From a virus: 42,702 bases of DNA. Shown piece by piece: positions 178 through 38,200 of this stretch. The notes below the pieces were generated by a model. The model was not told where the DNA came from. It did no database searches and saw nothing but the letters and a program-made list of their open reading frames with translations. The translations under genes and the position numbers were made by a program. Where the stretch lies: positions 1 to 42,702 of the IMG/VR virus record IMGVR_UViG_3300015158_000019, one strand, 5' to 3'. Position 1 is the stretch's first letter, and every line of letters starts with the position of its first letter.

Positions 178-488
178 GGCTTGAACGCGATCTTCCAGGC
201 GGTCCCATCCTTCGTGATCACCGGCTCGGCTTTGCTGCGCAGGAACGTGCTCTTCGGTGAAGTCCCCGGAGGCTCGTTAGGATTTGCGGTGTCGGCGATC
301 AGCCAGGGCTCGGGTGGCGTCGGCATCGCGAAAGGATTTCCGCCGTTCACGAACTGCACTACGGCCGGATCGGGCGTGAAGGCCGGCGCTGGTGGTTGGG
401 TGGGATGAGAACGGCTGTCGAGATAGATTACGCCAAGACAGACGGTGATGACGGCGATCGAGATTAAAAGGTGAGTTCTTTTGGTCAT
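174..488 (-). CDS. Small membrane-anchored protein, unknown function
   Basis: A 104-residue protein starting MTKRTHLLISIAVITVCLGV. Residues 7-23 form one hydrophobic helix after a short basic N-terminus, so the protein is probably anchored in the inner membrane with the C-terminal 80 residues outside. The exported part is Pro-rich (PTQPPAPAFTP) and ends in a short basic tail. The start at 488 is chosen because the hydrophobic segment begins there; an upstream in-frame start at 521 would overlap the preceding gene. The codons for Pro-Asn-Glu at 274-281 are one copy of the dispersed octamer TCGTTAGG. No family recognised. Confidence 0.55.
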   Translation of the reverse strand: MTKRTHLLISIAVITVCLGVIYLDSRSHPTQPPAPAFTPDPAVVQFVNGGNPFAMPTPPEPWLIADTANPNEPPGTSPKSTFLRSKAEPVITKDGTAWKIAFKP

Positions 489-498
489 AAAGGTTCGG

Positions 499-696
499 TT
501 ACTTGGTTGTGGCGGTCCCATCGCGCTGTTTCAGCGCGGCCTTCGCGGCTTCGCCGATGGAGTGGCCGTTGCCGCGAAAACGGCCGGAGACCTTATCGAA
601 AATGACCACGCCGAAGGGCTGATCCAGGGCCGGTGAATGAGTGATCTCAAAGCGTTCACGGACCAGCCACTTTGGAAATCGGTGCGTCAGGTTCAT
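499..696 (-). CDS. Small phage protein, unknown function
   Basis: A 65-residue soluble protein beginning MNLTHRFPKWLVRERFEI. Its C-terminal half, with a GxxIGEAAKAALKQ helix, resembles the small alpha/beta folds of HicB-like proteins only superficially, and no toxin partner is next to it. The start at 696 overlaps the upstream stop as ATGA, supporting translational coupling. Ten bases separate its stop from the next start at 488. Confidence 0.55.
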   Translation of the reverse strand: MNLTHRFPKWLVRERFEITHSPALDQPFGVVIFDKVSGRFRGNGHSIGEAAKAALKQRDGTATTK

Positions 697-920
697 GGCG
701 TTTCCCTCAGGAGTTGCGCGGCCTGCGCCATGCGGTTGACCGTGTTCACCGCGTCCCGCATGGCGCGGTGGCGGTTCACGGTGAGCTTGATCGCCTGGAG
801 CGCGGCGATGTCGCCCTCGAGCTGCTCATTGAAGTGATCAACGCGTTCCAGCTTTTCGAGCGCGCGGTGTTTCTGTGCGATCGCCTGGTCGATCCACTTC
901 TCCTGGTCGATGAATTTCAT
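693..920 (-). CDS. Small helical protein, unknown function
   Basis: A 75-residue, almost wholly helical and charged protein (MKFIDQEKWIDQAIAQKHRA at the start). The pattern suggests a coiled coil over most of its length. ATGA overlaps join it to the genes on both sides (920/917 and 696/693). No family recognised; the reading frame is supported by the coupled junctions and by lack of a competing frame. Confidence 0.6.
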   Translation of the reverse strand: MKFIDQEKWIDQAIAQKHRALEKLERVDHFNEQLEGDIAALQAIKLTVNRHRAMRDAVNTVNRMAQAAQLLRETP

Positions 921-2756: not shown

Positions 2757-2980
2757 GATTTTCCTTTCGTTAGGCGGTTAAAATGGAAGTAGGCCAGCTC
2801 CGCGAATTGCTTGGCGGAATCCTTCATCACGGTGCGCGTCGTGATTTTTTTCTTGAAGCCGGGCGCGGTGATTTTCGCCTGCCAGAAACGCGAATCCTTG
2901 CGCCGGAAAAGTTCCACCGTCAGCACCGCGATCTTCGTTTTCGCACGTGACTTTTTCTCCTTGAGCAAAGGCGCACTCAT
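2753..2980 (-). CDS. Small protein resembling an integrase arm-binding domain
   Basis: A 75-residue basic protein (start 2980, ATGA overlap with the frameshifted gene before it; an ATG at 2989 is the alternative). The central pattern, FRRKDSRFWQAKITAPGFKK then a threonine-rich strand and a helix (KDSAKQFAELAYFHFNRL), resembles the three-strand plus helix arm-type DNA-binding domain at the N-terminus of tyrosine recombinases. No catalytic domain follows. It may therefore be a free-standing DNA-binding protein; this is a fold-level guess. The stop region carries an octamer copy (2767-2774). Confidence 0.5.
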   Translation of the reverse strand: MSAPLLKEKKSRAKTKIAVLTVELFRRKDSRFWQAKITAPGFKKKITTRTVMKDSAKQFAELAYFHFNRLTKGKS

Positions 2981-5334: not shown

Positions 5335-5685
5335 TTAGAATTCCTCTTCGAGTCGATCCGTGTCCCGCTCTGGGTTCCCGGTTTCTCCGTGCCCTGCGGT
5401 CAGCGCTGGCGGCAGCTCGTATCGCTTCACCGGCTCCGCGCTTTGGGTCTTCGCCAGCGTCAGCGCCATCTCGCGCGAGATCGGCGACATCGAATAAACC
5501 GCCGAGGGTCCGAAGAACCGCGTGAACAAGACGGCGGTGCCATCATCGTTCGGCACGTCGACGCGGATGAAAGCGCCGCCCGCGATCGTCGCCTCGGTTA
5601 CTTTCCCGACGATGCGCTGATGGCCGAAGAGTTCGACCAAGGCCCATTCATCGAAGGTTGATTTCTCAGAGTTCTCGTTAGGCAT
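5335..5685 (-). CDS. Conserved phage protein, unknown function
   Basis: A 116-residue protein. The core (FDEWALVELFGHQRIVGKV, then GGAFIRVDVPNDDGTAVLFT and FFGPSAVYSMSPISREMA) is a pattern I have seen in many phages next to replication or transposition genes, without an assigned role. The C-terminal 35 residues look disordered. It begins ATG CCT AAC GAG, so the octamer CCTAACGA forms codons 2-4, and a second octamer copy lies in the 11-bp gap just upstream (5689-5696). Confidence 0.7.
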   Translation of the reverse strand: MPNENSEKSTFDEWALVELFGHQRIVGKVTEATIAGGAFIRVDVPNDDGTAVLFTRFFGPSAVYSMSPISREMALTLAKTQSAEPVKRYELPPALTAGHGETGNPERDTDRLEEEF

Positions 5686-5696
5686 AATTCGTTAGG

Positions 5697-5900
5697 TCAG
5701 TTGAGGGAGTGGATGATCGGGCGGTGGCGCGGCGTCGCGTTGCGGTCGAGCCAGGCGAAAGAGACGAGCGGCATCTCGCCAGTGAAAAGAAGAGGAAGCG
5801 CCGGAGGCGGGCGAAACACGGTGATCGAGCCGTAGCTGATCGCGAAGTTCATCGACGCCCGTTTCGATTGGCTGATGAAAGTGCCGACCGTCGGATTCAT
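5697..5900 (-). CDS. Small early protein, unknown function
   Basis: A 67-residue protein beginning MNPTVGTFISQSKRASMNFA, coupled to the transposase stop by ATGA (5900/5897). It has no charged clusters or transmembrane helix; a Pro-rich middle (FRPPPALPLLFTGEMP) is the most notable feature. No family recognised. Confidence 0.5.
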   Translation of the reverse strand: MNPTVGTFISQSKRASMNFAISYGSITVFRPPPALPLLFTGEMPLVSFAWLDRNATPRHRPIIHSLN

Positions 5901-7576
5901 TTCGCCCCTTTCTTCGCGATCGATTCGAAGACGTGGCAGACCTTGAGGAATTCCTCGTCGGTCATCTGCGTGATCTTCTTCACGCAGCCGAGCACACGAC
6001 TCGTTAGGGCAAACCGATTGAGACCTGGCTGCGCGATCTCAGCCGATTTCCACAGGCGCCAATACATCCCGTTGCGCTGCTCCGGCGTGAGCGGTTCCTT
6101 CGGCGCGTCGAGAACGTAGGTTGTCGCCTTCGGCGAAGATGTTTCCGGCAAGCTGCCGGAAACTGCAGGCTGGCAGCCTGCGCTCCCCGCACTGACTTCT
6201 GACTTCTGACCGCTGACTTCTGTGTCTTTCCACACACCCGGCTCGCGTTCTTCCTGCACGAACTGCCCGTGGTCCGTGTAGTCGTGGCCGGGCTCGCGGT
6301 TGTGCTTGTCGATCGCTTCGCGCACGGCCGCCTGCACCTGGCTGAGCCGAAGCATCGGCAGTTGCAGCCGCAGCCTTCTGCCGGCGCTGTTGGCGCTCAC
6401 TTCAAACTTCGCCAGGCGCTCGGTCTCATAGATCAGCGTGCCCGGCGTGTTCGAGCCGTAGCCTACATTGGCCGGCGTGTTCTCGTGCCGGTTGCCGATC
6501 TGCCCCGGCAAATGCAGCAGCGCGGTGTGCAGCCGGCGCATGAACGATTCGATGACGGCCTTGCCCGCGAAATTTCCCACCGCCCGATCGCGCGGCGCGC
6601 CGGTCCAGGTCACGCCGCCATTCATGCCGGTGCGGATGATCTGGATGCGGCCTTCGGTTACGCCTTCCAGCATCGTCTGCGCGGCCTCGGTGCACGGCAC
6701 GTTGCCGCGCTCGAATTTGATGTAGGTGGTGTAACCCACACCGAGGCCGAAACCCGGCGTCTGCAGGCCGTGCGCGAGCAGCTCGTCCACGTCCTCGCCT
6801 TTGATCGCGTCTTTCGGCTTGAGGATGAACGCCACGATCGTGCGGCTGGCTACTTCCATCAGGATGTAGCAGCGCACCTCGGTCACATCGCCCGACCAAT
6901 CCTGGACGCAGAGCAGATCGAGCCGCACGTCATCGAGCATGAACAGCTCGCACTTGCGCAGCTTCGAATAATCCATCGTGACATGGCAGGCGCGCGCCTT
7001 GAACGCGGCGAACCCGCGATTGCCGAGCGCGCGCGCGGACGGCGCGGGCGCGTAGTTGCGAATGGTCGACTCCGCGTACGGGAACTCGGCGCCGGCCGGA
7101 AAATCATCGTAGTTAATTCCGGGGATCGGTTTGCCTTCGGCGAAGTCGTTGCGCAGCCAATCGTAGATCGCCGAGATCGGAGTGAGACCTTTCTCGCGGC
7201 CGCCAGTCGGGAGCGTGCACCGGCGCTGGATCTCCGCGATGAGCAACTCAGGAATTTTCGGGAGGCCGGCCTTGTAGTTGAGCAGGAGCGCGTCGGGCGT
7301 GGTCCCGTTCGCGTTCCAGCGATACCATTCGCGGATGAGCGTGGCGTAGGAGAATCGGAGCGGCTTCATCACGCGCTCCTGGACACCGGATCGGCGGCTC
7401 ACTTTCACGCCGGCCTGGACGGCGGCGTTCTTCAACTGCTTCGCCAGCGCCTTCACGCCTCGGCTGAGGAAAACACCTTCATGCTGCATGCGCGCCGCCA
7501 GGGCGGTGAACTCCCGATGCAACAGCAGCGCGCGATTGCGCTGCCATTGTTTGACGGACGGGAGGGTCTCGGTCAT
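5897..7576 (-). CDS. Mu-type DDE transposase (catalytic part)
   Basis: A 559-residue protein with a Mu-type retroviral-integrase-like core. Residues 1-200 form helical DNA-binding segments. The first catalytic Asp lies in FMLDDVRLD (D215 or D216), the third acid in GKAVIESFMRRLH (E343). At the second position, where D is expected before a Gly-containing turn, the sequence is FERGN (E289). Spacing of about 73 and 54 residues is close to MuA (67 and 56). The barrel expected after the core is absent; instead a repeat-derived insert (about 452-483) leads to a helical tail (NGMYWRLWKSAEI...EEFLKVCHVFESI). Start 7576 is fixed by an ATGA overlap. It catalyses transposon end nicking and strand transfer in replicative transposition. 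Confidence 0.85.
   Translation of the reverse strand: MTETLPSVKQWQRNRALLLHREFTALAARMQHEGVFLSRGVKALAKQLKNAAVQAGVKVSRRSGVQERVMKPLRFSYATLIREWYRWNANGTTPDALLLNYKAGLPKIPELLIAEIQRRCTLPTGGREKGLTPISAIYDWLRNDFAEGKPIPGINYDDFPAGAEFPYAESTIRNYAPAPSARALGNRGFAAFKARACHVTMDYSKLRKCELFMLDDVRLDLLCVQDWSGDVTEVRCYILMEVASRTIVAFILKPKDAIKGEDVDELLAHGLQTPGFGLGVGYTTYIKFERGNVPCTEAAQTMLEGVTEGRIQIIRTGMNGGVTWTGAPRDRAVGNFAGKAVIESFMRRLHTALLHLPGQIGNRHENTPANVGYGSNTPGTLIYETERLAKFEVSANSAGRRLRLQLPMLRLSQVQAAVREAIDKHNREPGHDYTDHGQFVQEEREPGVWKDTEVSGQKSEVSAGSAGCQPAVSGSLPETSSPKATTYVLDAPKEPLTPEQRNGMYWRLWKSAEIAQPGLNRFALTSRVLGCVKKITQMTDEEFLKVCHVFESIAKKGAK
6141..6222. repeat. Palindromes plus CTTCTGAC tract inside the transposase
   Basis: Two perfect small palindromes lie in tandem: GTTTCCGGCA-AGC-TGCCGGAAAC (6141-6163) and GCAGGCT-GGC-AGCCTGC (6165-6181). 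A tandem GACTTCTGACTTCTGACCG tract follows (6192-6222). Similar CTTCTGAC tracts occur at 4294-4318 and 17229-17257. All are in frame and encode low-complexity sequence. Confidence 0.75.
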
Positions 7577-7863
7577 CGCGATCCCTCCGGGGAGCTCACA
7601 CAACGGTCACGACGGACACGAAGTGGGCGGATGACTTCCGGGTTGCAGATCCATTTCCCGCCGCCAAAAGTCCACACCGAAAGATCAGGGAGTCTCAGGC
7701 GGACGCGTGTTGCTTCGCGGCGGCTACGAAATTCCGGACTGACTAGCCGGAGGATTTCGCCGTTCGCGCGGACCGTGATTACTCCCGAATGAATCCGGCA
7801 AATGATCTCCTTCGCGACCTTCGTGTCCTTTGTGTGAGATGCCTTTTTAGCTTCCGATTTCAT
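7573..7863 (-). CDS. Small basic early protein, unknown function
   Basis: A 96-residue basic protein just before the transposase in transcription order, coupled to it by ATGA (7576/7573). The N-terminal KKASHTKDTKVAKEI is translated from a host-type repeat (7817-7840). The central part (CRIHSGVITVRANGEILRLV, then VRLRLPDLSVWTFGGGKWIC) is beta-rich. No family recognised; it overlaps the preceding gene by 17 bases. Confidence 0.55.
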   Translation of the reverse strand: MKSEAKKASHTKDTKVAKEIICRIHSGVITVRANGEILRLVSPEFRSRREATRVRLRLPDLSVWTFGGGKWICNPEVIRPLRVRRDRCVSSPEGSR

Positions 7864-8611
7864 AGACGTCTCCGTGCTCTTTGAAGTGATTGCCCTGGCG
7901 GCGAACCGTGACGATGTCCCAGGTTGAGCCGGTCAGTTCCTCGAGCGTGCGCAGCGCTCTCGCGCAAACGGTCGAGTAGACCTTCTTGTTCATCTGCGGC
8001 CGGAGCTCGACGACCGTCTCGCTGTGCGAACGAAAATTCACGGCGGCGTCGCGAAGCAGACTCCACTTCGTCGGCGACTCCTCTTCTTCCGGCTGTTCCT
8101 GATCCTTCAGGCGGTAGAGATCGCTCGCCGTCTTTCCGGCCAGCGCTTTCGACCTCCGGAGCGCTTCGATCGCTGCGCGTCCGTCTGCGATCGTTAGGCC
8201 AAGGCTCTTGGCCGCGTTGATGTAGTTGTAGGCGGACCGGCGCGAGATACGCGGATACTTTTCTTCGAGCCACGCACGGAAACCGCCGTCCTCGCTTTCG
8301 GCAAACTGTCCATCTGACCGGTGTGCAACGGTTGCACACACGTGCGAGGCCTGGGCCTTCATCAGGAACAAACCGGCCTCGACCAGGTCGTAAAGCAGAT
8401 CGACGCTCTTGCGCTCGATAAGATCGACAACCTCGTTCAAACCCTTCTCGATCTGCTCCAGCGATTCAGCCGGCGCGACAATTTCTACGTGAACACGTTT
8501 CGCGAGAGTCTTTGCCTTCTTACAAACGTGCGCCTTCAGGTTGATGAAGCCGCCGATGCCGCACGCCGGGCATTTCAGAAGTCGCTTCGCTTTGCGCTTG
8601 TGCTTGGACAT
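7847..8611 (-). CDS. Zinc-finger and HTH-like early protein
   Basis: A 254-residue basic protein. Residues 14-30 carry C14-x-x-C17, H28 and C30, a probable single zinc site. Residues 50-90 are helical. Residues 110-140 (FRAWLEEKYPRISRRSAYNY then INAAKSLGL) match a recurring helix pattern of phage DNA-binding proteins of the DUF3102 type, with a likely helix-turn-helix. The C-terminal part (YSTVCARALRTLEELTGSTW) is unassigned. A likely role is DNA binding in early regulation or replication, by inference. An exact palindrome, GTGTGCAAC-G-GTTGCACAC (8321-8339), lies inside the coding sequence. Confidence 0.6.
   Translation of the reverse strand: MSKHKRKAKRLLKCPACGIGGFINLKAHVCKKAKTLAKRVHVEIVAPAESLEQIEKGLNEVVDLIERKSVDLLYDLVEAGLFLMKAQASHVCATVAHRSDGQFAESEDGGFRAWLEEKYPRISRRSAYNYINAAKSLGLTIADGRAAIEALRRSKALAGKTASDLYRLKDQEQPEEEESPTKWSLLRDAAVNFRSHSETVVELRPQMNKKVYSTVCARALRTLEELTGSTWDIVTVRRQGNHFKEHGDVYEIGS
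8321..8339. promoter_or_regulatory. Perfect 9-bp inverted repeat, possible operator
   Basis: GTGTGCAAC, one central G, then GTTGCACAC: 18 symmetric bases, the size of a dimer operator. It lies inside the gene for the zinc-finger protein. The sequence shows the symmetry; any binding function is inference. Confidence 0.4.
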
Positions 8612-10119: not shown

Positions 10120-10328
10120 AATCCAAGCGCCCTTTCCACTTGTTTGCGGACCAGCGGGAACCGCGGGAATTGATTGATCGCCTTGCTCACCGTCGAGCGC
10201 TGCCTCTTTGGCCGCAGCGATCGGGCGAGCGCTTCGATCGTCATCGCTTTGCCGAGCAATGCGATCTTGGCGCGGCGCCGGAAAGATTTTCCTTGTGCCG
10301 AGAGTTTATTTTGTGCGACTTTGTTCAC
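10116..10328 (-). CDS. Ner/Cro-like early regulator, HTH protein
   Basis: A 70-residue basic protein starting at a GTG (10328), the first gene of the leftward operon and divergent from the repressor. Residues 22-60 form a helix-turn-helix: AKIALLGKAMTIEALARSLR, then STVSKAINQFPRF. Size, position and charge match Mu Ner or a Cro, a DNA-binding protein that turns down repressor and early transcription. The start lies within the operator region, so it could block its own and the repressor promoter. Next gene is coupled by ATGA. Confidence 0.72.
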   Translation of the reverse strand: MNKVAQNKLSAQGKSFRRRAKIALLGKAMTIEALARSLRPKRQRSTVSKAINQFPRFPLVRKQVERALGL

Positions 10329-10377
10329 GAACGTGCACCTAGTAAACGTTCACAGAATCAAACCGTCAACAGAAAAA
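10329..10377. promoter_or_regulatory. Divergent operator/promoter region (lysogeny switch)
   Basis: Only 49 bp separate the two divergent GTG starts. The half-site GTTCAC occurs at 10323-10328 and 10348-10353, and its complement GTGAAC at 10378-10383, with a related GTGAAA at 10388. A palindrome CACGAACGTG covers 10326-10335 across the ner start. Repeated half-sites over both starts fit operators for the repressor and the Ner-like protein. Promoter boxes could not be fixed by eye. Confidence 0.6.
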
Positions 10378-11259
10378 GTGAACGAAAGTGAAAAATTTTC
10401 TGACCGCCTCCAAAGGTGGCGGGTGCGGAACAATTTGAAGCAACCGGAGGCCGCGCAGCGTCTCGGCATAGGGAGAACTTACTACTCGGAACTCGAGAAC
10501 GGCCGGGAGCCCGGAAAATTCCTTCGCCAAAAGTTCGAATTGATCGAGAACGTTTTCGTCGATAAAAACGACGGAAGTGAAACTTCCCGCGTGGCGGAGG
10601 AAGATGGCGGACCGCGCTCTCTAATAAAGAAGACGCGCGAAGCGATGAACCTCACGGTCGAGGATCTCGCGAAACTGTCGAAGGTCCCCGCGGATTACAT
10701 TCGCCAGATCGAAGACGGTCGGGTCCAGGGCTCGAACGAAAAACAGCTTCGCAGGCTTGCGGCCGCGCTGAAGCTCGATCCGGAGGATCTCATGAGCGGC
10801 TCTGATCATCCGCCGTCGCTTGGTCCAGTGCATCGAACCTTCGGCGCCAAGCCGGACGTGGCGACGACCGACAACATCAAGCCGAAAAACATTCCGCTCA
10901 TCTCCATGGCGCAGGCTGGGGAGCTGATCGAGTTCGACGACGTTTACGATTACGAAGGCGTGCTCGCCTACGATGGAAAAGACCCGCGCGCCTTCGCGGT
11001 CCGCATCCGTGGCGATAGCATGGCGCCGCAATATGGCGAAGGCACGATCGCGATTTGCTACCCCAGCTTCAAACCGAAGAACGACAACCTGGTCGTCGCG
11101 AAATTGCGTGATGGCAGCGTGCTCTTCAAGCGCGCGCAGTTCGGCGCCGGTGAAGTGATCTTCCACTCCATGAATCCTAACTACCAGCCGATGCGTTACC
11201 CGGAGCGCGATCTCGTGTGGATCTATCCGGTCGGCCTCACGCAGAAAGTCGAACTATGA
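10378..11259 (+). CDS. Lysogeny repressor: tandem XRE HTH plus S24 domain
   Basis: A 293-residue protein from GTG at 10378; the in-frame region upstream runs antisense through the ner gene and is not used. Residues 7-58 and 82-138 are two separate XRE-type helix-turn-helix domains. Residues 173-293 form a LexA/CI-type S24 domain: self-cleavage site A180-G181 in SMAQAGEL, catalytic Ser214 in RGDSMAP, and catalytic Lys251 in VLFKRAQ. Cleavage on RecA activation would inactivate it and induce the phage. CI-type repressors usually carry one HTH, so the tandem pair is uncommon. Its stop overlaps the lipoprotein start, tying envelope genes to repressor expression. Confidence 0.87.
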   Translation: MNESEKFSDRLQRWRVRNNLKQPEAAQRLGIGRTYYSELENGREPGKFLRQKFELIENVFVDKNDGSETSRVAEEDGGPRSLIKKTREAMNLTVEDLAKLSKVPADYIRQIEDGRVQGSNEKQLRRLAAALKLDPEDLMSGSDHPPSLGPVHRTFGAKPDVATTDNIKPKNIPLISMAQAGELIEFDDVYDYEGVLAYDGKDPRAFAVRIRGDSMAPQYGEGTIAICYPSFKPKNDNLVVAKLRDGSVLFKRAQFGAGEVIFHSMNPNYQPMRYPERDLVWIYPVGLTQKVEL

Positions 11260-13018: not shown

Positions 13019-13043
13019 TGCCAGTCCGGCTCGGACCCTAACG

Positions 13044-13072
13044 AATCAGGAAAACAGGAACGCAGGAAAAAA
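13044..13072. repeat. AGGAAAACAGGAACGCAGG repeat supplying an RBS
   Basis: A copy of the AGGAAAGCAGG repeat family, also at 8613-8640 and, inverted, at about 12279-12305. Its last unit GCAGGAAAAAACT lies directly before the ATG at 13075 and includes the AGGA used as Shine-Dalgarno. It directly follows an octamer copy (13037-13044). Confidence 0.6.
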
Positions 13073-13694: not shown

Positions 13695-13703
13695 CGAGTT
13701 CGA

Positions 13704-20184: not shown

Positions 20185-20186
20185 GC

Positions 20187-21496: not shown

Positions 21497-21534
21497 CCGC
21501 CTAACGAGTCTCAAATCAACCAAGGAAAATTATC

Positions 21535-22581: not shown

Positions 22582-22617
22582 CGGAAATCAAAGGCGGCTC
22601 GCCTAACGAGTCATTCG

Positions 22618-22835: not shown

Positions 22836-22859
22836 GTCGTTAGGTTCGATGATTCAAGC

Positions 22860-24856: not shown

Positions 24857-25683
24857 CGCGTTTTTCTCGCATCATGTTTTCCGCGGCCGTGGCGACGAAC
24901 ATCGCGTTCTCGCGGCCGGTCCAGTTTTCACAGGCCGCGCAAGCGCGCTCTGTGCAATCGATTCTGCCCACGGAACTCTCGAGTGCGCAGCTCGAGGAGA
25001 TCAACCCGGCCGTCATGGAGCGCGCGCTGGTCTCGGCCCGCGTTCACAGTGCCGAGGTGCTGCAGGACCTCGACGATATCCTGAGCCGCTACCTCGGCGG
25101 TGAGATCAACAGCGCCACGGCCGTCGCGGAGCTGCGGCAATCGATGCGCGAAAACGGCCTCTGGGCCGCGCCTGGTGATGAAGGCACGCTGAAAGATTTC
25201 CAGGGCAACGAGCGGTTGAATCTCATCATCCGGATGAACGCCGGCTTTGCGAACAGCTACGGCGATTGGATCTACAATCAGCAGGCGCCAGTCCTCGATG
25301 AATGGCCCGCGCAGGAACTCTTTCGCGGAGTCGCCGTGAAGGTGCCGCGCGATTGGGTCACGCGGTGGAACGACGCGGCCGACGCCACCGGCACCAAGGT
25401 CGCGGGCTTCGTCGCGCTGCGGAACACCCCGATCTGGACCGCGATCTCGCGTTTTGGCGTTCCTTATCCGCCTTACGATTTTAATTCCGGCATGCGCACG
25501 CGCCTGGTCGACCGGACGCGCGCGATGTCGTTAGGCCTGATCGATCGCGAGACCCGGATCGAGCCGCAGGACCGCGGTTTCAATGACGACCTTCGTTTCA
25601 CTCCGGATGTGCGCGCGGCCGCGCTGCGCCAGGCTCTCCTGGAAGAAGGCTACAAATTCGAAGGAGACGTTCTCACGTTATGA
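24853..25683 (+). CDS. Minor head protein (Mu gpF/gp30-like morphogenesis)
   Basis: A 276-residue protein. The line SILPTELSSAQLEEINPAVM, ERALVSARVHSAEVLQDLDD, EGTLKDFQGNERLNLIIRMN, VLDEWPAQELFRGVAVKVPR and ISRFGVPYPPYDFNSGMRTR matches a family of phage head morphogenesis proteins of Mu-like elements. It lies after rather than before the capsid gene, unlike Mu F. The first 20 residues (MTRFSRIMFSAAVATNIAFS) are hydrophobic with V-A-T-N, a variant of the motif seen in the scaffold. Coupled on both sides by ATGA. Confidence 0.8.
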   Translation: MTRFSRIMFSAAVATNIAFSRPVQFSQAAQARSVQSILPTELSSAQLEEINPAVMERALVSARVHSAEVLQDLDDILSRYLGGEINSATAVAELRQSMRENGLWAAPGDEGTLKDFQGNERLNLIIRMNAGFANSYGDWIYNQQAPVLDEWPAQELFRGVAVKVPRDWVTRWNDAADATGTKVAGFVALRNTPIWTAISRFGVPYPPYDFNSGMRTRLVDRTRAMSLGLIDRETRIEPQDRGFNDDLRFTPDVRAAALRQALLEEGYKFEGDVLTL

Positions 25684-26348
25684 GTGGTCTCGGCCTGAAC
25701 ATCCAAAGCGACGACATCAGCGACATCCTGATCGCGGTCGAAACGCTCGAGGGAAAACTCGCGGGTGACGAAGCGAAGCTTATCGCCGGCGCACAACTCA
25801 AAGAAACGGTGCGCGATCATCTTTACGCGCTCGAGACCGACAGCGTGCATCATCGCAGCGCCCAATCGTTGGGCGCGGCGCCCACGCACTTCTACGCCGA
25901 AGCGGCCGACAAGGTTCATGAACCGCAAATTGAAGGCGACAGCATCTCGGTGTCGATCGAACAGACCGGGCTCGCGCAACGTTATTTCGGCGGCGACATC
26001 GAAGGCGATCCGTTGCTCACGATCCCGGCGCGAATGGAAGCATACGGACATCGCGCGAGCGACTTCGACAATCTGCGACTGATCATGTTCCCGAGCGGCG
26101 CCGGCGCACTCGTGGAACGCGACGCGACCGTGCTGAAGGGCGGAAAGCGCGGCGCCGGAAATCTCGCGGGATCGTTGGACGGGAAAAGCAAGGGCGACTC
26201 GTTAGGCGGGCTCGTGTTCTTCTGGCTCGTCCGTCACGTCCACCAGGAGCCCGATGAGACCGTGCTGCCGACTGATGAACAAATGCTCGAGCCGATCGCG
26301 GCGCGCCTGCAGAGCTATCTCGAAAACGCGTGGGGGACAGCGGCATGA
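25680..26348 (+). CDS. Virion morphogenesis/tail completion (gpG-like)
   Basis: A 222-residue protein after the minor head gene. SVHHRSAQSLGAAPTHFYAE, followed by SVSIEQTGLAQRYFGGDIEG, resembles Mu gpG-type or HK97 gp10-type neck proteins that connect head and tail. The C-terminal LVFFWLVRHVHQEPDETVLP is also typical. It is ATGA-coupled to both neighbours. An octamer copy lies at 26199-26206. Confidence 0.68.
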   Translation: MSGLGLNIQSDDISDILIAVETLEGKLAGDEAKLIAGAQLKETVRDHLYALETDSVHHRSAQSLGAAPTHFYAEAADKVHEPQIEGDSISVSIEQTGLAQRYFGGDIEGDPLLTIPARMEAYGHRASDFDNLRLIMFPSGAGALVERDATVLKGGKRGAGNLAGSLDGKSKGDSLGGLVFFWLVRHVHQEPDETVLPTDEQMLEPIAARLQSYLENAWGTAA

Positions 26349-26861: not shown

Positions 26862-27155
26862 ATGAGACCAAGCACCAATCAGGTCGTTGGCTACGTCGCG
26901 CCTCCGGCGAAGCCAGGCGAGTCACCCAGCATCAAGAAAGGCGTCGTCATCGAGGTTTTGAATGACGGCGCGGACACCGCGCGGATCGATCTGACTCCGC
27001 GGAACGAAAAAGGCGAAGCGGCCGATCCTGAAAAGGCGCCGCTCGGTCATCACATCGCAATCGCGGCCTTCAACGCCGACAAAAAAACCCCGAACACCTG
27101 GCACGTGCTCGCCGAAGCAACGGCCCAGCCCGCGGCCCCGGCGCCGCGCGCCTAA
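26862..27155 (+). CDS. Small tail-region protein, unknown function
   Basis: A 97-residue protein (MRPSTNQVVGYVAPPAKPGE) with a beta-rich middle (KGVVIEVLNDGADTARIDLT) and an Ala/Pro-rich tail. Between tail terminator and tail tube genes, it may be a minor tail or tail-tip protein. The TAA stop is contained in an octamer copy (27151-27158). Confidence 0.55.
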   Translation: MRPSTNQVVGYVAPPAKPGESPSIKKGVVIEVLNDGADTARIDLTPRNEKGEAADPEKAPLGHHIAIAAFNADKKTPNTWHVLAEATAQPAAPAPRA

Positions 27156-27182
27156 CGACAGCAACCAAGGAACAATAAATTT

Positions 27183-27929
27183 ATGGAACAAGGATCCACA
27201 GCAAACCCGAATCTCGCGTCACTCGAGAAAACCACCGGCAAGATCATTTTCTTTCCGGATGCGAATCCCACCCAGGGCGAAAACTTCGGCGTCATCCAAA
27301 TGGTGAAGGTCGGATTCAACATAGAGACGGAAAAAATTCAGTTCCCGATCGATGGAGCGGTCATCGGCGCGACGAATGACAACATCGCCATGTCGCCCGA
27401 CATCATGTTCGAGGGACACCAGATTACCGATGACGTGGAAGCGCGGCTCAATCTCGGCACCAAGAACGCCGACGACGTCCAGGCTTCCGGCACCGGGTCC
27501 ACGGTCACCGTCACATCGAAGCTCGGCAAAACCTTCGACCTCGGGTTTCGGAACATCAGCAACCTGGTCGTCACCGTGGGTGGCGTCACGAAGGTGCTGA
27601 ACACGGATTACTACGCTGATCTGAGCGAGGGTTTGATCCGGTTCCCGTTCATCGCGGCCGGGATCGCGGATGCGGCGAGCGTGCTCTGCACGTTCGACAA
27701 AGCAGCGCTGACCCGGAAAAGCTACACGGGCGGCACGCTGCTGAGCGAGACTGGCAGGCTGGTTTACTTCGAGCGCGACGGAAAATCCTCCACCGTTCGC
27801 GCGGAATGGAGCCTCCCTGGCACACTCTCGCCACAGAATCCGGGCGATGGCGATCCGAAGAAAACGAAGCAGTGGCAGATGAAGTTCGCCGTGAACGGCC
27901 AGTGGACGAAGAAGAAGCGCGCGGCCTAA
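27183..27929 (+). CDS. Major tail tube protein
   Basis: A 248-residue protein before the tail assembly chaperones. Beta-rich sequence (KVGFNIETEKIQFPIDGAVI, DIMFEGHQITDDVEARLNLG, TGSTVTVTSKLGKTFDLGFR) and position fit a siphovirus tail tube subunit. AAGGAAC precedes the ATG. No sheath gene neighbours it, so the tail should be non-contractile. The TAA stop lies in an octamer copy (27925-27932). Confidence 0.74.
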   Translation: MEQGSTANPNLASLEKTTGKIIFFPDANPTQGENFGVIQMVKVGFNIETEKIQFPIDGAVIGATNDNIAMSPDIMFEGHQITDDVEARLNLGTKNADDVQASGTGSTVTVTSKLGKTFDLGFRNISNLVVTVGGVTKVLNTDYYADLSEGLIRFPFIAAGIADAASVLCTFDKAALTRKSYTGGTLLSETGRLVYFERDGKSSTVRAEWSLPGTLSPQNPGDGDPKKTKQWQMKFAVNGQWTKKKRAA

Positions 27930-27949
27930 CGAGCTGCCGGTGACGAGCG

Positions 27950-28692: not shown

Positions 28693-31600
28693 ATGGCCAC
28701 TAGTGCCGAGCGCGAACTGAAGATCCTGTTGTCGCTCGTGGCGGGCGACTTGTCCGGCGCGCAGAAAGTCCGCGCGGAGATGGCGGCGATCGAGGCGGAC
28801 CAGGCTCGATTAGTCAAGCAGCTGCAGGAGCAAAGCGATGTCTCGCCCGCGGTCGGCCGGCGCATCGATGCGCTGAAGCAGGAGATTTCTCAGCAGGCGG
28901 TGATCAATGCGCAGATGGAGCGGCGCGTGATTGTGGAGACCGAGATCGAAGCCGCGGAGGCGCGCATTGCCGGCAACCCCGCTCTCGCGGTCCGGCTCGA
29001 GCGCGAAGCCGCCATCCGAGCGCGCGCTCTTGGCATCCAGCGCGCGCTGAACGTCTCCGTGGAGGAATCGATTGTCCTGGCTGAGAAACTAGTGCTCGCT
29101 CAGGAAGCCGGCGTCGCACCGACTGCGATGGCCGGAGTGAACCTGGCTAAGGCGAAGACCGAAGCGATGGTCCTGACCCGCGAGCTCGCGGCCGGGAACG
29201 TGCGCGCGAGCACACTCAGCTCGCTCTTGGGTTCGATGGGGACAGCGTTCACGATCTCCGGCCTGGCCGCTTACGAGATCTATCATCTGCTTTCTTCCTC
29301 CGCCGACGAATCGCTCCGGCTCTCGAATGAAGCCCGGAAAAACACCGAAGAGCTGGTCAAGCAATTGACGCACTGGAACGAGCTGGCCCAGGCCGCGAGC
29401 GACTTCGGCGATGTGATAAAATTCGGCGAGCAACTCCAGCCGGCGCTCGACGCGGCGGCGGCCAAACTCGAGGAATTCCGGAACAAGGAGTTGAGCGCTT
29501 TCAAACTACTCTGGGATGCGATTGGCAGCATCGGGCAACTCACTCCAGGGAATGACCCGAATTCTTTCGCGGCGGAACGTGACAAAGACACCGCGCGCCA
29601 GGAGAGCGCATTGCAAAACCTGATCCGCAACGCGGTCGCCCTAAAAGGAACAGCACAGCAAGCGGCCGATGCCTGGCAATCTCTCAAACTCGAACCGCTT
29701 GATGTCGCGATCGAAAAACAGAACGCCCTGGTGGAAAAAGCGCGGGAGAAATACGCCGCGCTCAAAACCGAATTGCGCGACCTCGCCGTGGGAAACCTCG
29801 ACGAAGAGAAAACGCAGCGCGCCCTCCAGGCGCTGAAGGCATTGGATGAGGCAGGCCGCAAGCTCGAGCTGGAAACCAAACGAAGCGATGAGCTGACGAA
29901 ATCGCAATCGAAGCTGGCAGCGGAAACCGACAAAGTCAGCGCCGCCATCAATAAGATGGACTTCGGCGATTTGGACAGCGGCCATCAGCTCGAGGCGCTT
30001 TCCACAGACCTCGAAGGCATCCGTGGCAAGCTACTCGAGCTCGGAGTCGACGCCGCATCGCCTAACGATGCGCTCGAAAAATCGAAGCAGCTCACCGCCG
30101 AAACACGCGAGGAAGTCATCAAGCTCGCGGCGGCCTGGGCCCAGGTTCTCGGTTTGATCTTGAAGGTCGAGCAGTCGGAGGAAGAAGAAGCGCGAAAACG
30201 TTCGCAGCAGGAGACCAACGCCATGCTGCGCGAACAGGCCGCGTTAATCGAACGGGTGCGTCAGCAGCAGCGATTGATCGGTGCAAACACCTTCCTTTCT
30301 CCAGATGCGAAGCAGGCGCTGAGTCTCGCTTCCATGACCGCGGAAATGCTCGCGTTGAGCGCCGCGATCGAACAGACGAAAGCGAAAATGGCCGGAGGTC
30401 CACTCGATCCGGTGCTGCATGAACGTCTCCAGGCCCAACTGCAAAAAGATCAGTTCGAGTTCGACCTGCTAAAGCTGAAAATCGCGGCCATCAATAAGCC
30501 CCTCGCGGCGGAGTTGGCCGATTGGGTGAACAACTTCGGAACCTCCGCGCACCAGATCGCCGGCATCATCGAGAACTCGATTAACGCCACGCTGCAATCG
30601 ACGAACCAACTCCTGATCGATTCTGCTTTTCGCACCGGCGATTGGCGGCAAACCCTCGTCGGACTGGAGAAGCAGCTCCTGCAATTTTTCCTGACCTGGA
30701 TGGAACAACAGGCCCTCCAGCTCATCTTCGGTGAAACGGCGAAGCAGACTTCGACCGCCAGTTCCATAGCGCAGGGCGCCGCGGTAGCCGCGGCGCACGC
30801 GCCCGCGGCGGCGGCGACTTCGATTTCTTCCTATGGAACCGCCGCCGTGGTGGGCGAGGCGCTGGCGGTGGCCGCGATCATTGCGATCATGGCCGCGCTC
30901 GGCGGTGGCTTCAAGAAAGGCGGTTACACCGGCGATGGCAGCCCCGACGATTTTGCCGGACCGGCCCACAAAGGAGAGTTTTATTTCAGCGCGGAAGAGA
31001 CGCGCAACATCGGGCTCGATCGACTCTACGCAGCGCAACACTTCGGCCGCGGCGGGCGCGTTAGAAACATCAGCGGCGATGGCGAATTCAATCCGCTTCT
31101 GCCGCACTGGAGTGGCGGTCCGATCGAGCCGTCGATCCTCAATCAAACCGGCCGCGGAAATTTTGTGCCCGATGATGGCCGGCTCGATGCGTGGACGCTC
31201 GGCTCCGGCGCAACTGAAACCTATACCCCGAGGGGCGGCGGATATATTCATCCGGGCGATGACGATCCGTTCCAGACCGGCGCGCGTTCGATCCCGCGCT
31301 GGGATGTTCCGACTCGCTCCGAATTCGCGGCATGGAAGGAGAAATACGCCCCTAACGACTCTGGATCAGACTACGATTTTTATTCTGCGTGGTTAGCAGG
31401 AGCACTGCCTGATGAAAACGGACATTGGCCCGACACTTTCAAGCTACCTAATCATCCAACATTTTCGGATGAATCGCAGTACGCGAACCAATTTCCAACC
31501 CTTGCTGGACATTGGGAGGGAAACACCTTCTTTCCGCATGGGTCGTGGGCCGATATCAACCGCGGCAACATGAGTCCCGGTTCGAATCTGTTCATGGGTC

Positions 31601-32619: not shown

Positions 32620-34721
32620 AGTTTATTACCTACGCCGGCGCCACGATCGCGCTCATTCTGGCGCAGCCGAACCGGAAGACGCGGCCGGTGCTCACGGCCA
32701 CCATGCCGTTCACTGATGTGGCTGAAGCCCTCTCCAAGCGACAGTCGCGGCGCAATTTCGGGCGCAGTTCGCGCTACAGGCTGGAGTACACGCCTTGGTT
32801 CAAAAATGCTCAGCTCGCCAAGGAATTCCGCATCGGCCTAACGAGACTCAAAGACGAGACAGTAGCAGTGCCGCTCTGGGACGATTGGGTCAAGCTTCCG
32901 GCCGGTTGCGCGATCGCGGCGACGTCGTTGCCGAAGGCGTCCGATAATCCGGTGCGCTTCGGTTCGGAGTGGATCATTCTTTCGCCGGACTTAGTCACCT
33001 ACGAGATCGTCGTCGTGAATTCGGTCAACTCCGACACGATCGAGCTGAACGCGGGGACCACGCTGGCGTGGCCGAGTGGCACGCTGATGTATCCGCTGCT
33101 CTTTGGCCGGTTCGCGGAGCGGCCCACTCTCGAGTCGGTCACTCCGCAAAAGGTTCTGGGCGCTTTGAAGATCCAGGAGGACTCTTCGTTCGCCCGCAAA
33201 TTAAATCCGTATGCGGGCGCGATCCCGACCGTGGGCGCGGGCGTGCCGGCATTTTCGACGATGCCTCTGTGGGACATCCAACCGGCTTGGTCGCAGGTGC
33301 TCGATACGACGGAAGTCGATATCCTCTACACGCAAATCGGCTTTGGCCGGCCAGAGCAAAAATACGTTTACCAGCAGGCGAACCGGCGCGGCCTGGAGAT
33401 GGAATTTGTTTGCAAGAGCCGCGCCGCGATCGCGGCGGTCGAGCGTCTCTTCGTCGATCGGCGCGGACCAGTGAAGCCATTCATGATCCCGACCTTCCGG
33501 CAGGATCTCGAGATAACGCAGGATCTGCCGATCGCGGGCGCCACCAACCACATCACGATCGCCTCGAGCGAATACAGCAACCCGGCGCGGCCCGTGCATC
33601 CGGGCGATCCGTACGTGGCCCTGTGCGAGCCCGGCGACGGCAACGTCGATCCGCAGAAAATTACAAACGTCGCCGGGGGCACTCTCACCACGGCCGTGGC
33701 GGTTTCGCGCGCGCACTGGAAAAGCAAAACGCGGCTGAGCGAGCTCTTGCTGGTATGCCTCGCGAGCCCGCAGCTCTCGTGGGAAAACATCACGCCGACG
33801 CGCGCCCGGTGCCGTCTGAAGTTCATCGAAAGACCGGACGAATACGTCACTCCGAATCCGGACCTGCCGGAGCCGGCTTTCCTTTTCGAGTGGAGCGAAA
33901 TGATGCCGACTCCGCTGATCTCGCGCTTCACCAGCTACGAGAACTCGATTTCCTACGGCGGGCAGACCTTCACGCCGGCGCCCTTTTCGCACGGCTCCAT
34001 CAAGAGCGGGATCAAGCTCGATCGCGAGGAAGTGCCGGTGACGAGCTGGGGAGCGAACTTCGCCGCGAATCCGCTCGCCAAGTTTTTCCCTTACGCGCTC
34101 GAGGGAGAACTCTGGCTGAAGATTATCGAAGTGAATGCGGCGGCGCCGGACGATGGCACCGCGCAGAATCTTTTCTACGGCGTCGTTTCGAAGCCCGATT
34201 TTTCCGGCGTCGATTGGAAGGCGGTGGTCCGCGCCTTCGGAAACTTTTTCGAACGCAATGTCCCGCGTCTGATCCTGCGCAAAACGAGCAGCGTTCCGAT
34301 CTACTCGCCGCAGTCCGGAGTGAACAAGGCGGCCTTCCGCACCACGGGGCCGATCGCAGCCATGAACGCAGCGGATGCGAGCGTCGACGTCACGACCAGC
34401 ACCACGCCGCCCGCAAATTATTTCGGCGGTGGTGGCCTCTTCGAAACCGGCACGGGCACAAATTGGGAGGAGCGAACGATCCTCTATTCCGTCGCAATCA
34501 CGGGCGGACAGCGCTTGACCCTGAACCGCGCGCTGCGCAAAGCGGTCGTGGCCCAGGCCGCGAATCTTTATCCAGGCTGGAACGGCTCCGTCGACACGCT
34601 CGCCGCCACTTTCGGCGATGCTGCTGTTCTCAACTTGCGCGCGTTTCCGTATGTCCCGCTCAAAAATCCGAGTGCGAACATCGGCGAAGTCGCGCAAGCG
34701 AGCGGAGGGAAAAAGGGATGA
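32616..34721 (+). CDS. Distal tail protein with DUF2163/BR0599-like C-terminus
   Basis: A 701-residue protein between tape measure and NlpC/P60 genes. Residues 1-410 are beta-rich and carry patterns of distal tail proteins (LWDDWVKLPAGCA, RFGSEWIILSPDLVTYEIVV, YPLLFGRFAERPTLE). Residues 411-701 match a DUF2163/BR0599-like module (SRFTSYENSISYGGQTFTPA, LFYGVVSKPDFSGVDWKAVV, NVPRLILRK). The Cys pair usual in that module is absent here (VPIYSPQSGVNKAAF). The fusion of two tail genes into one is notable. ATGA-coupled at both ends. Confidence 0.7.
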   Translation: MKFITYAGATIALILAQPNRKTRPVLTATMPFTDVAEALSKRQSRRNFGRSSRYRLEYTPWFKNAQLAKEFRIGLTRLKDETVAVPLWDDWVKLPAGCAIAATSLPKASDNPVRFGSEWIILSPDLVTYEIVVVNSVNSDTIELNAGTTLAWPSGTLMYPLLFGRFAERPTLESVTPQKVLGALKIQEDSSFARKLNPYAGAIPTVGAGVPAFSTMPLWDIQPAWSQVLDTTEVDILYTQIGFGRPEQKYVYQQANRRGLEMEFVCKSRAAIAAVERLFVDRRGPVKPFMIPTFRQDLEITQDLPIAGATNHITIASSEYSNPARPVHPGDPYVALCEPGDGNVDPQKITNVAGGTLTTAVAVSRAHWKSKTRLSELLLVCLASPQLSWENITPTRARCRLKFIERPDEYVTPNPDLPEPAFLFEWSEMMPTPLISRFTSYENSISYGGQTFTPAPFSHGSIKSGIKLDREEVPVTSWGANFAANPLAKFFPYALEGELWLKIIEVNAAAPDDGTAQNLFYGVVSKPDFSGVDWKAVVRAFGNFFERNVPRLILRKTSSVPIYSPQSGVNKAAFRTTGPIAAMNAADASVDVTTSTTPPANYFGGGGLFETGTGTNWEERTILYSVAITGGQRLTLNRALRKAVVAQAANLYPGWNGSVDTLAATFGDAAVLNLRAFPYVPLKNPSANIGEVAQASGGKKG

Positions 34722-35248
34722 GCGATCGCTGGTTTTTCGACGATGCAGCGGCGGTGCAGCGGCTCTGCGTGGAATGCGAATCGTGGCGGAGAACGCCGTT
34801 CCGTTTCGGCAGCCGCGCAAAAGGAATCGGGGGCGGCGCTGATTGCGTTGGTTTCTGCGAAGCGGTCATGCTCGCGGCCGGCGCCGTCACGCAATTCAAT
34901 TTTCCTCGCACGCCGGCCGATAACTCGCGCCACGTTCACAACGATCGCATCCTGAATTATCTCCGCGGCAAAGTCGACGATCCGCAGAGTGCCTATCTCG
35001 CGCAGCGTTTCGTGGAGCTCTTCGTCATCGATCCGGAAGAACCCGGCGCGCCCACGCCGGTCCCATTTCTCGCGGGCGACCTCGTGCTGATGAAAACCGG
35101 CAAAGGTCTTTGGCACATGCCGGTCATGATGAGTGCCACTGCGTTCATGCAGTGCGCGTTTCCCGATGGCGTGACCGAAGGCGATATCACCGCACCGAAC
35201 TACCGCAAATATCTCGTGGCCGCCTTCCGCGCCCGCGCGCTTTTCTAA
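34718..35248 (+). CDS. NlpC/P60 tail peptidase
   Basis: A 176-residue protein with the NlpC/P60 hallmarks: catalytic Cys43 in GGGADCVGFCEAV and probable His133 in GLWHMPVMM, with the AGDLVLMKTG strand between. Such tail-tip peptidases cut peptidoglycan cross-links during DNA entry. It lies between distal tail and tip genes, as in siphoviruses and gene transfer agents. The start overlaps the previous stop as ATGA. Confidence 0.82.
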   Translation: MSDRWFFDDAAAVQRLCVECESWRRTPFRFGSRAKGIGGGADCVGFCEAVMLAAGAVTQFNFPRTPADNSRHVHNDRILNYLRGKVDDPQSAYLAQRFVELFVIDPEEPGAPTPVPFLAGDLVLMKTGKGLWHMPVMMSATAFMQCAFPDGVTEGDITAPNYRKYLVAAFRARALF

Positions 35249-35249
35249 A

Positions 35250-38200
35250 ATGTTTGGGTCCACCGCCACTCCGGTTTCGCAGAAAAAACTGGCGAACATT
35301 TCCGGCTACGACACTTCGTCGAACCAGCAGGGCGTGCCTGTGCCCTGGTTTGCGGGCGAAGCGAAGATCGCGCTCAGCTGGATCTGTCCCTTCTACAATC
35401 TGACCAGCAAAACGGTGAACTCCGGAGGGGGCAAGAAAGGCGCAGGCGCGGCTGGTGCGCAGAAAAACTGGTATGCCGATATCGCCGGGGTGGCCTGCGT
35501 TTGCCCTGATGACGCGCCCGTCGATTCCATCATCAACGTGCTGGTGAATGACCAGGTCGCGTTCACGGGACCTCTCGTGCGCAGCGGTGGCGCGCATTAC
35601 GTGGCGCTCACGCTCGACACCTATTGTCAGGAAGCCCGCTGTTACTGGGGCACGAAGGACCAACCGCGCGATACGCTCATTCTCACTCCGCGCGGCGTGC
35701 CGCCCGTGGGAGGTGGATTCAATCCGCGCAACACGGCCACTTACCCATCGTTCGATTCTGCGGGCGATCCCTGGGTGCTTTCCACCCCGCCGCCCGGCGT
35801 CTCGAACCCGAAGGCCGGTCACTACGACACGCACCCGGCGTACCGGAACTGCTGCTATTTCGTCTTCAAACAGTTCTTCCTCGGCTCCTCGCCAAACATG
35901 CCCAACGTCTCGGTGATTCTCTCGCGGGGCTGCAAGTTTTTCTCGGGCGCTCGCTTCGAATCGTCTCCCGCGGGCGGTGTTAATCCAATGGGGCCGCTTT
36001 ACGAAATTCTCACCGATACACTTTTCGGCGCGGGCTTACCCGAGGCGCAATTGAGCGCGGCGAGTTTCGAGGCCGCCGCTTCCGCACTCGACGACGACGG
36101 AATTCTGCTCTCGCCAGTCCTGCTCTCCTCCACCTCGCTGCGTGCTTTTATTGCGGAATACCTGGGATACTTCGACGGCTTTCTTCGTCGCAACGGAACG
36201 CTGCTCGAGGCGGGATATTTTTCGCACGGCGCGATCGACTCAAGCAGCCTGCTCACACTCAATTCCGACGACCTGGCCAGCGAGCCACAAATTCAGCCTG
36301 GCACGCTGGAAGACACCAAGAATTTTTTCACGGTTGAGTTCACCAATCGCGCCACTTGGTATTACCCCGACTTCGCCACGTCCGACGATCCGTCGAACTT
36401 CCATCAGGTCGGAGAACATCGCGACGATAACCCGAAGCGCCCGTTCATCATTACGGCTGCGCTCGCCCAGCGATTTATCACCGAATACGGGATGATGGCT
36501 GGAAAAATTCCCGCCAGCGGCGCCGCTGAATTTCTGCGGGAAAAAGTGAAGACGCTTTTGCCTGGAGACCGATTCAATCTCGACTCGACCAGCTTTGGCC
36601 TGGAGTTCCTGCTCCGCGTAAATAACCGCGAGTGGCCAGCGGATAAAGACGCCGTGGCGAAGCTCGCCGTCTCAGTGGAGCGCGCGGACTGGCAGCATCT
36701 CTACACGCAGCCGGCCGCGCCGAAAGATCCCGACTTCACCATCGAAGCCATTGCGATCGCCGCGCAGCGCATCGTGGAACTGCCGAGCCAGCTCAAGGAC
36801 GTGAACGCAGTGGAAGTGGCGGTCCTGGCCGAGCGGCCGAGTGCGCCGATCCTCGGGTTCCGCACCCACGTGAGCAAAGACAACGTGACCTATGATCTGG
36901 TCGCGCAGCAGACGTTTTTTGCCGTGCACGGCAAGATCAAGACGGCCGCTTACGTGGCCACCACTCCGATCGTCGATACGAGCGTGGGCATGGTGGTGGA
37001 GCTCTACGGCGTAGACCTCGAATCGATCGTGAGCCAAAGCGACCAAGAGCGCGACGATCACGCGCTTCTGGTTTGGGTTGGCAACGAGATCATGAGCGTG
37101 GGGAGCGTGACCGCGCTCGGCAGCGGGCAATACCGCGTCTATCTGAAGCGCGGCTGCTACGGAACGCAGCAGGCGGCCCACGCGATCGACTCCGACTGCT
37201 GGTTTGTTTTCCGCGATCACATCGCGCCGATCGCGAACGCAAATTTCATTCCGGGAAACACCGTCTACTTCAAGCTTCAGCCCTACACGGCGACCGAGAA
37301 TTACGACATCGCGCTCGTCACGGCCGTAGCGCACACCTTTGGCGATGGCCCGTTTGTTCTGAGCGGCCTCGAGCTTTTCGGTCAAGGCAGCGATTTCGAA
37401 TTCACCGGGCGCAATCCGCGCTTTGCGTGGCGGCTCTATTCGATCGCGGGGGCGGAGATCTCGGGAGAACAGTTGTCGTTAGGCGCGTACGACGATCAGT
37501 TCGCGCAGTTTAATCTGCGCGTACGTGATGCGATAACCGGCGACGTCGTCTGGACCGGCTCGAGTAAAGTTCCGGAACGGACTTTCGACTACGAAGAGAA
37601 TGCGAACTGCGCGGGCGGCCCACGCCGGCATTTCTATTTCGGCGTGGCCGCGCTCTCGCGCTCCGGAGCGCAGACGCCGTGGGAAGAGATCGAGGTCAAC
37701 AATCCGAATGAAAATCCACCGAGTGGCCACGTCGGCGGCGGCATCACGTCGATCGATTTCTATTTGGATACTTCGACCGCGCTCGATCACGCCGGCATTC
37801 TCCTCTGGCGTTCCCTCGATCCCGCTTTCGTCGTGACCGAGCCATTGGCGGCCGGCGTGGAGCTGGTCTTCAAAGGTCCCGACAGCTTTTTCAGCGTGCC
37901 ACAGGCTGAGGGAACCACCTGGTATTATCGCAGCGCCAGTTACGATGATTTTTGGGATGGCACGATCGCAGACCTGATCATCGGCGCGGCTGTCGCGGAA
38001 TCTACTATTGCCGTCACGCCGGTCGGTGATCCGCCGTCCATCTCGGAAGGTGGCGGCAGTTTCACGGGCACGAAAAGCGTCACGGTCTCACCGCGAATCG
38101 GGGAGCGCGTGGTTTACGCTTTCAACCGAGACACGCTTTCCACTTCGGCTGGGTGGCCCGGTGGAATTGGGAGTTACTCGAGCTTGACGATCGACAAGAG

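Follow-up and report, generated by a model that had tools for sequence, protein, structure and literature searches.

The nonamer TCGTTAGGC recurs in a virus record of IMG/VR (IMGVR_UViG_3300015158_000019, whose 42,702 bases, all analysed here, are called the window), and it is not the property of the phage that carries it: the word marks one clade of Chthoniobacterales. We consider it fairly probable that this clade marker belongs to a system resembling the DNA uptake sequences (DUS) of Neisseriaceae, and that the phage, Mu-like and transposable by its gene content and probably temperate, acquired the word from such a host. By analogy with known systems, DNA uptake is its most likely function, and the word is most likely bound at the cell surface during uptake because abundance, strand symmetry, agreement of the dialects with the host phylogeny, their joint presence in one genome, a conjugative element and parallels in other phages all point this way. 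In the proposed mechanism, a DNA receptor on the cell surface, part of the type IV pilus/competence machinery, would bind the word preferentially, and transformation with DNA of kin would restore and spread it. On either strand, within genes as well as between them, the word would accumulate until the richest genomes have one copy per 0.9-2.3 kb, and a probably temperate Mu-like phage would pick it up through long life in a word-bearing host. The sister sub-clade has an unrelated second word, TGTCGATCTT, which in one genome occurs beside the first.

The window contains 21 exact copies of the octamer TCGTTAGG/CCTAACGA (11 on the plus and 10 on the minus strand, within 274-37484), of which 15 extend to TCGTTAGGC; an exact recount reproduced the copy number, the number of nonamers and the coordinates of an earlier note on this DNA, made from the sequence alone. 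Dinucleotide shuffles of the window (n = 100) yielded a mean of 0.64 and a maximum of 3 octamers and an order-3 Markov model predicts 0.56, which makes the enrichment 33-38 fold; the over-representation claimed by that note is thus real, its figure of 20-fold too low. The octamer is the window's most significant 8-mer, and among 9-mers one homopolymer run alone outscores TCGTTAGGC by z. The flanks of the 21 copies, compared by eye, have nothing longer in common, as the note had also held. At 351 copies per Mb, the nonamer lies above the mark of 100 per Mb set for a word-bearing temperate phage.

Bacterial genomes were scanned for two copies of TCGTTAGGC separated by 130-160 bases, with at least 120 stretches returned; among the 80 matches listed, 60 were Verrucomicrobiota, and 56 of these were named Chthoniobacterales, Spartobacteria or Udaeobacter. 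Counted against the reversed word as control, the richest genome (G003, MGR_bin418) holds 4,605 copies in 4.3 Mb against 62, followed by G008 (2,754 vs 66), G011 (2,183 vs 53), G010 (2,147 vs 53), G007 (1,980 vs 61), G004 (1,802 vs 70) and G006 (1,410 vs 47), while genomes of other phyla from the same scan stay below their controls (Kribbella 18 vs 67; Xanthomonas 7 vs 50). These seven, among 213 genomes of the order, carry 1,410-4,605 copies each, or 427-1,071 per Mb. The earlier note had proposed counting the word in bacterial genomes and phages against a Markov expectation; it proved strongly enriched, with 349 copies vs 6.5 expected in 310 kb of G003, where it is the top 9-mer, and the enrichment spans 45-71 fold over Markov expectation. 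Across the 213 Chthoniobacterales genomes, the enriched ones fall in a single block of 83 (82 neighbouring rows and a centre, read from listing order, part of it confirmed by the tree described below). The control is exceeded in 78 of the 83 block genomes (exceptions G131, G132, G137, G156 and G181) and, by reading, in 0 of the 130 outside. Among 387 genomes drawn from the phylum, strong enrichment occurs in G003 and G004 only, and weak enrichment in a few (e.g., G402, 133 vs 66; G585, 59 vs 31). The suggestion that the word behaves as a genome-wide signal rather than as a mobile repeat is thus upheld, the same nonamer reaching about 1,070 per Mb in one Chthoniobacterales clade.

De novo counting in 663 kb of G004 revealed 1,026 copies of TGTCGATCT, the second word, absent from the earlier note, vs 17.8 expected, together with 383 of TCGTTAGGC; the genome as a whole carries both words, with 4,653 copies of the second and 1,802 of the first. 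The second word, counted as TGTCGATCTT, is present at least 100 times in each of 46 among the 83 genomes of the block and no more than 46 times in any genome of the order outside it; among the genomes with the first word alone, the six richest (G003, G006, G007, G008, G010 and G011) have 19-29 copies. An rpoB tree built from 25 genomes (four of the 29 asked gave no match; quick search, SH-aLRT support, outgroup chosen by us) places the word genomes in one clade (support 99), compatible with a single change between word and none, within which the six first-word-only genomes form one clade (96) and the second-word genomes fall in a further clade (98) together with two weak genomes and G004. For these two words and this tree, the dialects follow the host phylogeny. 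The rpoB gene itself carries the word: a Ser-Leu-Gly near the C terminus is encoded as TCG-TTA-GGC in all 10 genomes whose first-word density exceeds 100 per Mb and in none of the 9 others, though 7 of these have the same residues (20 rows compared, G037 dropped for a wrong frame). The six first-word-only rpoB genes differ by 11-18% in DNA with the codon run kept, and shared descent accounts for part of this pattern. As separate observations, TGTCGATCT in G004 has a longer preferred context, its neighbours starting at most 15 bp apart being 35 in the same orientation vs 3 inverted, and two or three 5-kb bins of the sample G009 (L333-L336) are dense in local repeats centred on GAACTGTACGATCC and CTACACCTAC.

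Within host genomes, for which genes were called with a simple caller of our own, neither word is polar, and both occur on either strand, inside and between genes. Of the 349 copies of TCGTTAGGC in G003, 230 lie inside called genes, with orientations of 123:107 (not significant), at a density of 0.92 per kb in genes and 1.44 between them and with a peak between convergent genes (17 in 5,952 bp); the 383 copies in G004 have in-gene orientations of 178:155, again not significant. The two strands of one G004 contig, counted over its first 420 of 737 kb, carry TCGTTAGGC about equally often (102/120, p 0.25), and likewise TGTCGATCT (315/318, p 0.94). Copies less than 100 bp apart are rare in G004 (3 vs 20.7 expected), but G003 shows no such shortage (21 neighbours no more than 50 bp apart vs about 19 expected by our own arithmetic). 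The end letters vary more than the core: position 2 of the first word shows C to T 134 times vs 5.5 in G004. Among the small excesses at core positions is G to T at position 7 of the first word (10 vs 3.0 in G003; 14 vs 4.1 in G004).

Regarding the phage, the assignment to the Mu-like transposable kind follows from a transposase, a Mu-type portal protein, a tape-measure match among the window proteins and a repressor with S24 and helix-turn-helix domains:

5897..7603, minus strand: transposase of the transposable-phage (Mu-like) kind (phrog_310, E 3.9e-10; without a Pfam match)
10174..11259, plus strand: phage-type repressor, helix-turn-helix and S24 peptidase (PF00717, PF13560, PF01381)
17165..18904, plus strand: Mu-type portal protein (PF06074, E 2.2e-32), with relatives in Chthoniobacterales genomes

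The copies of the word, placed with our own list of open reading frames (ORFs), are distributed as follows:

274..281, plus strand: octamer TCGTTAGG, inside candidate ORF 174-521 (minus strand)
2767..2775, plus strand: TCGTTAGGC, gene junction
5675..5683, plus strand: TCGTTAGGC, 5' end of ORF 5335-5685 (minus strand)
5689..5696, plus strand: TCGTTAGG, junction, 14 bp from the copy at 5675..5683
6001..6008, plus strand: TCGTTAGG, transposase gene, place conserved in relative G001
8191..8199, plus strand: TCGTTAGGC, ORF 7847-8611 (minus strand)
13037..13044, minus strand: TCGTTAGG, junction
13689..13697, minus strand: TCGTTAGGC, TAA stop of ORF 13188-13694
14048..14056, plus strand: TCGTTAGGC, outside listed ORFs
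20833..20841, minus strand: TCGTTAGGC, ORF 19994-21496
21499..21507, minus strand: TCGTTAGGC, junction, conserved in relative G002
22601..22609, minus strand: TCGTTAGGC, junction, conserved in relatives G001 and G002
22837..22844, plus strand: TCGTTAGG, ORF 22630-22893
25528..25536, plus strand: TCGTTAGGC, ORF 24853-25683, absent at the aligned place in G001 and G002
26199..26207, plus strand: TCGTTAGGC, ORF 25680-26348
27150..27158, minus strand: TCGTTAGGC, TAA stop of ORF 26862-27155
27924..27932, minus strand: TCGTTAGGC, TAA stop of ORF 27183-27929
30060..30068, minus strand: TCGTTAGGC, tape-measure gene, conserved in relative G002
31351..31358, minus strand: TCGTTAGG, tape-measure gene
32836..32844, minus strand: TCGTTAGGC, ORF 32616-34721, conserved in relative G002
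37476..37484, plus strand: TCGTTAGGC, ORF 35250-38531

Twelve copies thus lie within ORFs, six outside the listed ORFs, and three at a gene end where they supply the TAA stop (octamers at 13690, 27151 and 27925). The earlier note was right in finding copies in coding sequence as well as in junctions; its statement that they often contribute the stop reduces to 3 of 21. Its orientation bias is likewise correct as a count, CCTAACGA being on the coding strand in 16 of 21 copies (p = 0.027, a weak bias), and appears confined to this small sample, given the in-gene orientations of G003 and G004 reported above. With 15 first words and a single TGTCGATCT, the window is of the first dialect only.

Two related records, G001 and G002, are 67 and 66% identical to the window phage in the transposase and 77 and 74% in the portal protein. 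They hold 6 and 8 copies of TCGTTAGG, which ranks second and first, respectively, among their 8-mers; the density of TCGTTAGGC is 213 per Mb in G002 and 84 per Mb, below the mark of 100, in G001. Where the DNA aligns, 2 of 4 window copies are kept in G001 and 4 of 9 in G002, the junction copy at 22602 being common to all three. A further phage contig, L024, has 10 copies in 12.1 kb, 9 of them counted as TCGTTAGGC. Among bacterial genomes, the portal protein finds matches of 52% (G093) and 59% (G090) identity and six others of 25-34%. The window transposase had no match among annotated phages, and its alignment against genome contigs gave 25 pattern matches with no relative among them. No TCGTTAGGC lies in the 90.5 kb that surround related portal genes in word-free genomes, which is weak evidence because about one copy would be expected there by chance. 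In four-letter composition, the phage is closest to G013 (0.968), G007 (0.959) and G003 (0.951), followed by six further bacterial samples at 0.947-0.934, one of them without the word; composition would thus link the phage only weakly to particular hosts. From the dialect, the word-free portal relatives of the same order and, weakly, composition, we infer a host within the first-word-only clade. Several loci from a close-pair scan of viral sequences were tandem repeats, hence a wide spacer was used in the viral word scans. Those for the first word returned 10 and 9 stretches, making 19 distinct loci with L024; apart from L024 with its 9, each has 2-4 copies, and the second word occurs in 1 of the 19. 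Scanned for the second word, viral sequences yielded 15 loci, all with 2-3 copies and 2 of them with the first word as well, and no phage rich in the second word.

Some features of the window stand apart from the word. An ORF at 19994-21496 (500 amino acids, endonuclease VII-type match) overlaps the end of a protease-like ORF at 18901-20184 by 191 bases in another frame, and 1111-1728 encodes a phage protein (phrog_9210) with a C-terminal DnaJ-domain match just below the Pfam cut-off. Six copies of AAGCACCAA/TTGGTGCTT vs 0.18 expected lie at 2738, 4369, 4383, 20183, 20197 and 26870, some in a 14-bp period with GGAGCTTGGTGCTT, and resemble a family of short tandem repeats. At 3086-3101, just before the low end of ORF 3125-4336 (minus strand), 16 consecutive G may reflect slippage or an assembly problem.

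Several points weigh against the interpretation as an uptake word acquired by the phage. The richest genomes were found via the word itself, so the unpicked series of 213 carries more weight, and the word genomes named by the scan are metagenome assemblies. The two words are not clearly akin in sequence, whereas the dialects of Neisseriaceae given in PMC3630211 are. One-mismatch variants at core positions are mostly at expectation for both words, which are sharper than we would expect of drifting uptake words, and inverted pairs are not in the majority: of the neighbours at most 60 bp apart in G003, 12 are inverted and 14 direct. The 6 copies in G001 are, taken alone, not significant once all 8-mers are counted; portal matches occur in 8 of 210 genomes, all outside the word block; and genome searches with the portal protein and the transposase found no relative of the window phage in a word-rich genome. 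The ComEC, PilT and DprA families are present in word genomes. They are equally present in word-free ones and therefore do not discriminate the two: ComEC occurs in 193 of 210 genomes (the 17 without it are 7 in the block and 10 outside), and in a set chosen by hand (16 genomes with the word and 6 without) PilT occurs in all 22 and DprA in 21. GspH/FimT (PF12019), the sole pilin family tried as a receptor type, matches 33 of 210 genomes, only one of which belongs to the block. No experiment on uptake came to light.

Because the words are sharp and inverted pairs are not in the majority, the main rival is an iterated motif of other function, like HIP1 (GCGATCGC) of cyanobacteria, selected together with a methylase, repair or recombination protein. 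We hold this to be unlikely, though a serious competitor. The sharp words, with little excess of one-mismatch core forms, and the GATC contained in the second word speak for it, and a review of HIP (PMC4390886) assigns Chi, uptake words and HIP to three different classes. Yet neither TCGTTAGGC nor TGTCGATCTT is a palindrome, the first word lacks even a four-letter palindrome (by eye), and sister clades differ in which of two unrelated words they have, one genome having both; two dialects per genome are known for uptake sequences, there one letter apart (PMC3630211, in the part available). The earlier note had listed uptake, recombination, segregation and methylation as candidate functions, of which uptake fits best. 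A Chi-like or KOPS/FRS-like site guiding recombination or chromosome segregation would agree with an over-represented word of octamer length within genes, and phages often keep Chi; the missing strand polarity over 420 kb of one contig (102/120 and 315/318 for the two words) disfavours this explanation, as does an enrichment of 45-71 fold, far above the level usual for Chi, and we regard it as improbable. Equally improbable in our view is a non-polar site of chromosome organisation, bound by a nucleoid or condensin-type protein: it would suit the non-polar, chromosome-wide distribution and the rarity of close copies in G004, whereas G003 has no shortage of close copies, the abundance exceeds that of the usual site systems, and the change of word would go unexplained.

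That the word is a signal owned by the phage (repressor stoperators, packaging or transposase sites) is suggested by the encoded repressor and transposase and by the 16 of 21 copies in one orientation to transcription. In the phage, however, the nonamer is sparser (351 per Mb) than in the seven bacterial genomes richest in it (427-1,071), it recurs in L024 (9 in 12.1 kb), and it is missing, with about one copy expected, around the related portal genes of word-free genomes. As the word's origin this explanation is refuted and overall very improbable, a secondary use by the phage being possible. The integron core consensus is GTTRRRY, to which the last seven letters of the word, GTTAGGC, conform; attC sites or remnants of another mobile repeat are nevertheless refuted by the unshared flanks, and single copies inside genes in several frames and thousands per genome leave this idea scarcely any probability.

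Word content also sets apart one stretch of a word-bearing genome, probably foreign DNA. On contig C14 of G004, the second word is missing from the 104,848 bp between 354,866 and 459,714 (L322-L361), and no other gap in the 500 kb read exceeds 5,256 bp; the first word drops in this stretch about 6-fold, from 0.59 to 0.095 per kb, at much the same G+C. Ten of the 96 genes called in and beside the gap (350-462 kb) were scanned for families and include a TrwC relaxase, a TraC/TraG-type ATPase, two RND pumps, a metal P-type ATPase, a multicopper oxidase and a helicase, with an Mrr-type nuclease spanning the gap edge. Judging from these families, we take the stretch for an integrated conjugative element; alternatively, it could be an assembly join with such an element. 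The residual first words (10 vs about 1.3 expected by proportion) may hint, as a guess, at passage of the element through a first-word host. In this Spartobacteria genome the region, 105 kb long and like a conjugative element, came to notice through its missing second word and holds genes for metal and RND efflux.

Lastly, to our knowledge uptake tags have so far come from two bacterial families only. The literature on uptake sequences combined with Verrucomicrobiota, Chthoniobacter, Udaeobacter or Spartobacteria reports no such word among the matches listed, with subscription journals mostly uncovered; a search for the word's letters gave no lead among the matches listed, seemingly primers or oligonucleotides; and the motif survey PMC5217627, in the part accessible, does not name Verrucomicrobiota. 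We lean slightly towards seeing here a third, independently evolved system of sequence-specific uptake, which would be the first outside Proteobacteria and belong to soil Verrucomicrobiota, with two words that replace each other or coexist and with phages and conjugative elements readable by word. If true, a further phylum would let one ask whether selection or molecular drive lies behind such systems, how genomes switch words and what the receptor must be. Possible tools would be the assignment of uncultured soil phages to hosts by dialect and the detection of recently acquired islands in soil genomes by word content.

Among known systems, HIP1 is likewise a highly iterated short motif, and its content is reportedly used to find transferred, foreign genes in cyanobacteria. 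It differs in being palindromic and tied to two orphan methylases (PMC4390886, in the part available), the words here not being palindromes. The core of the words seems less tolerant of mismatches than that of the uptake signal sequence (USS) of Pasteurellaceae, and the USS is a different word. The DUS of Neisseriaceae are unrelated in sequence and belong to another phylum, and the words described here do not look like one-letter variants of each other and lack prevailing inverted pairs. Like the DUS, they are short and asymmetric, lie in and between genes and form dialects that track the tree. The accessible parts of two studies add a genome with two dialects, one letter apart there, in Simonsiella muelleri (PMC3630211), and neisserial conjugative elements that stand out by word content (PMC7371117), to which G004 and its island on C14 correspond. 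With the USS, the first word shares its length of nine, the existence of two clade-specific forms and, according to the part of PMC6776037 available, the accumulation of the host's form in temperate phages, Mu-like groups included.

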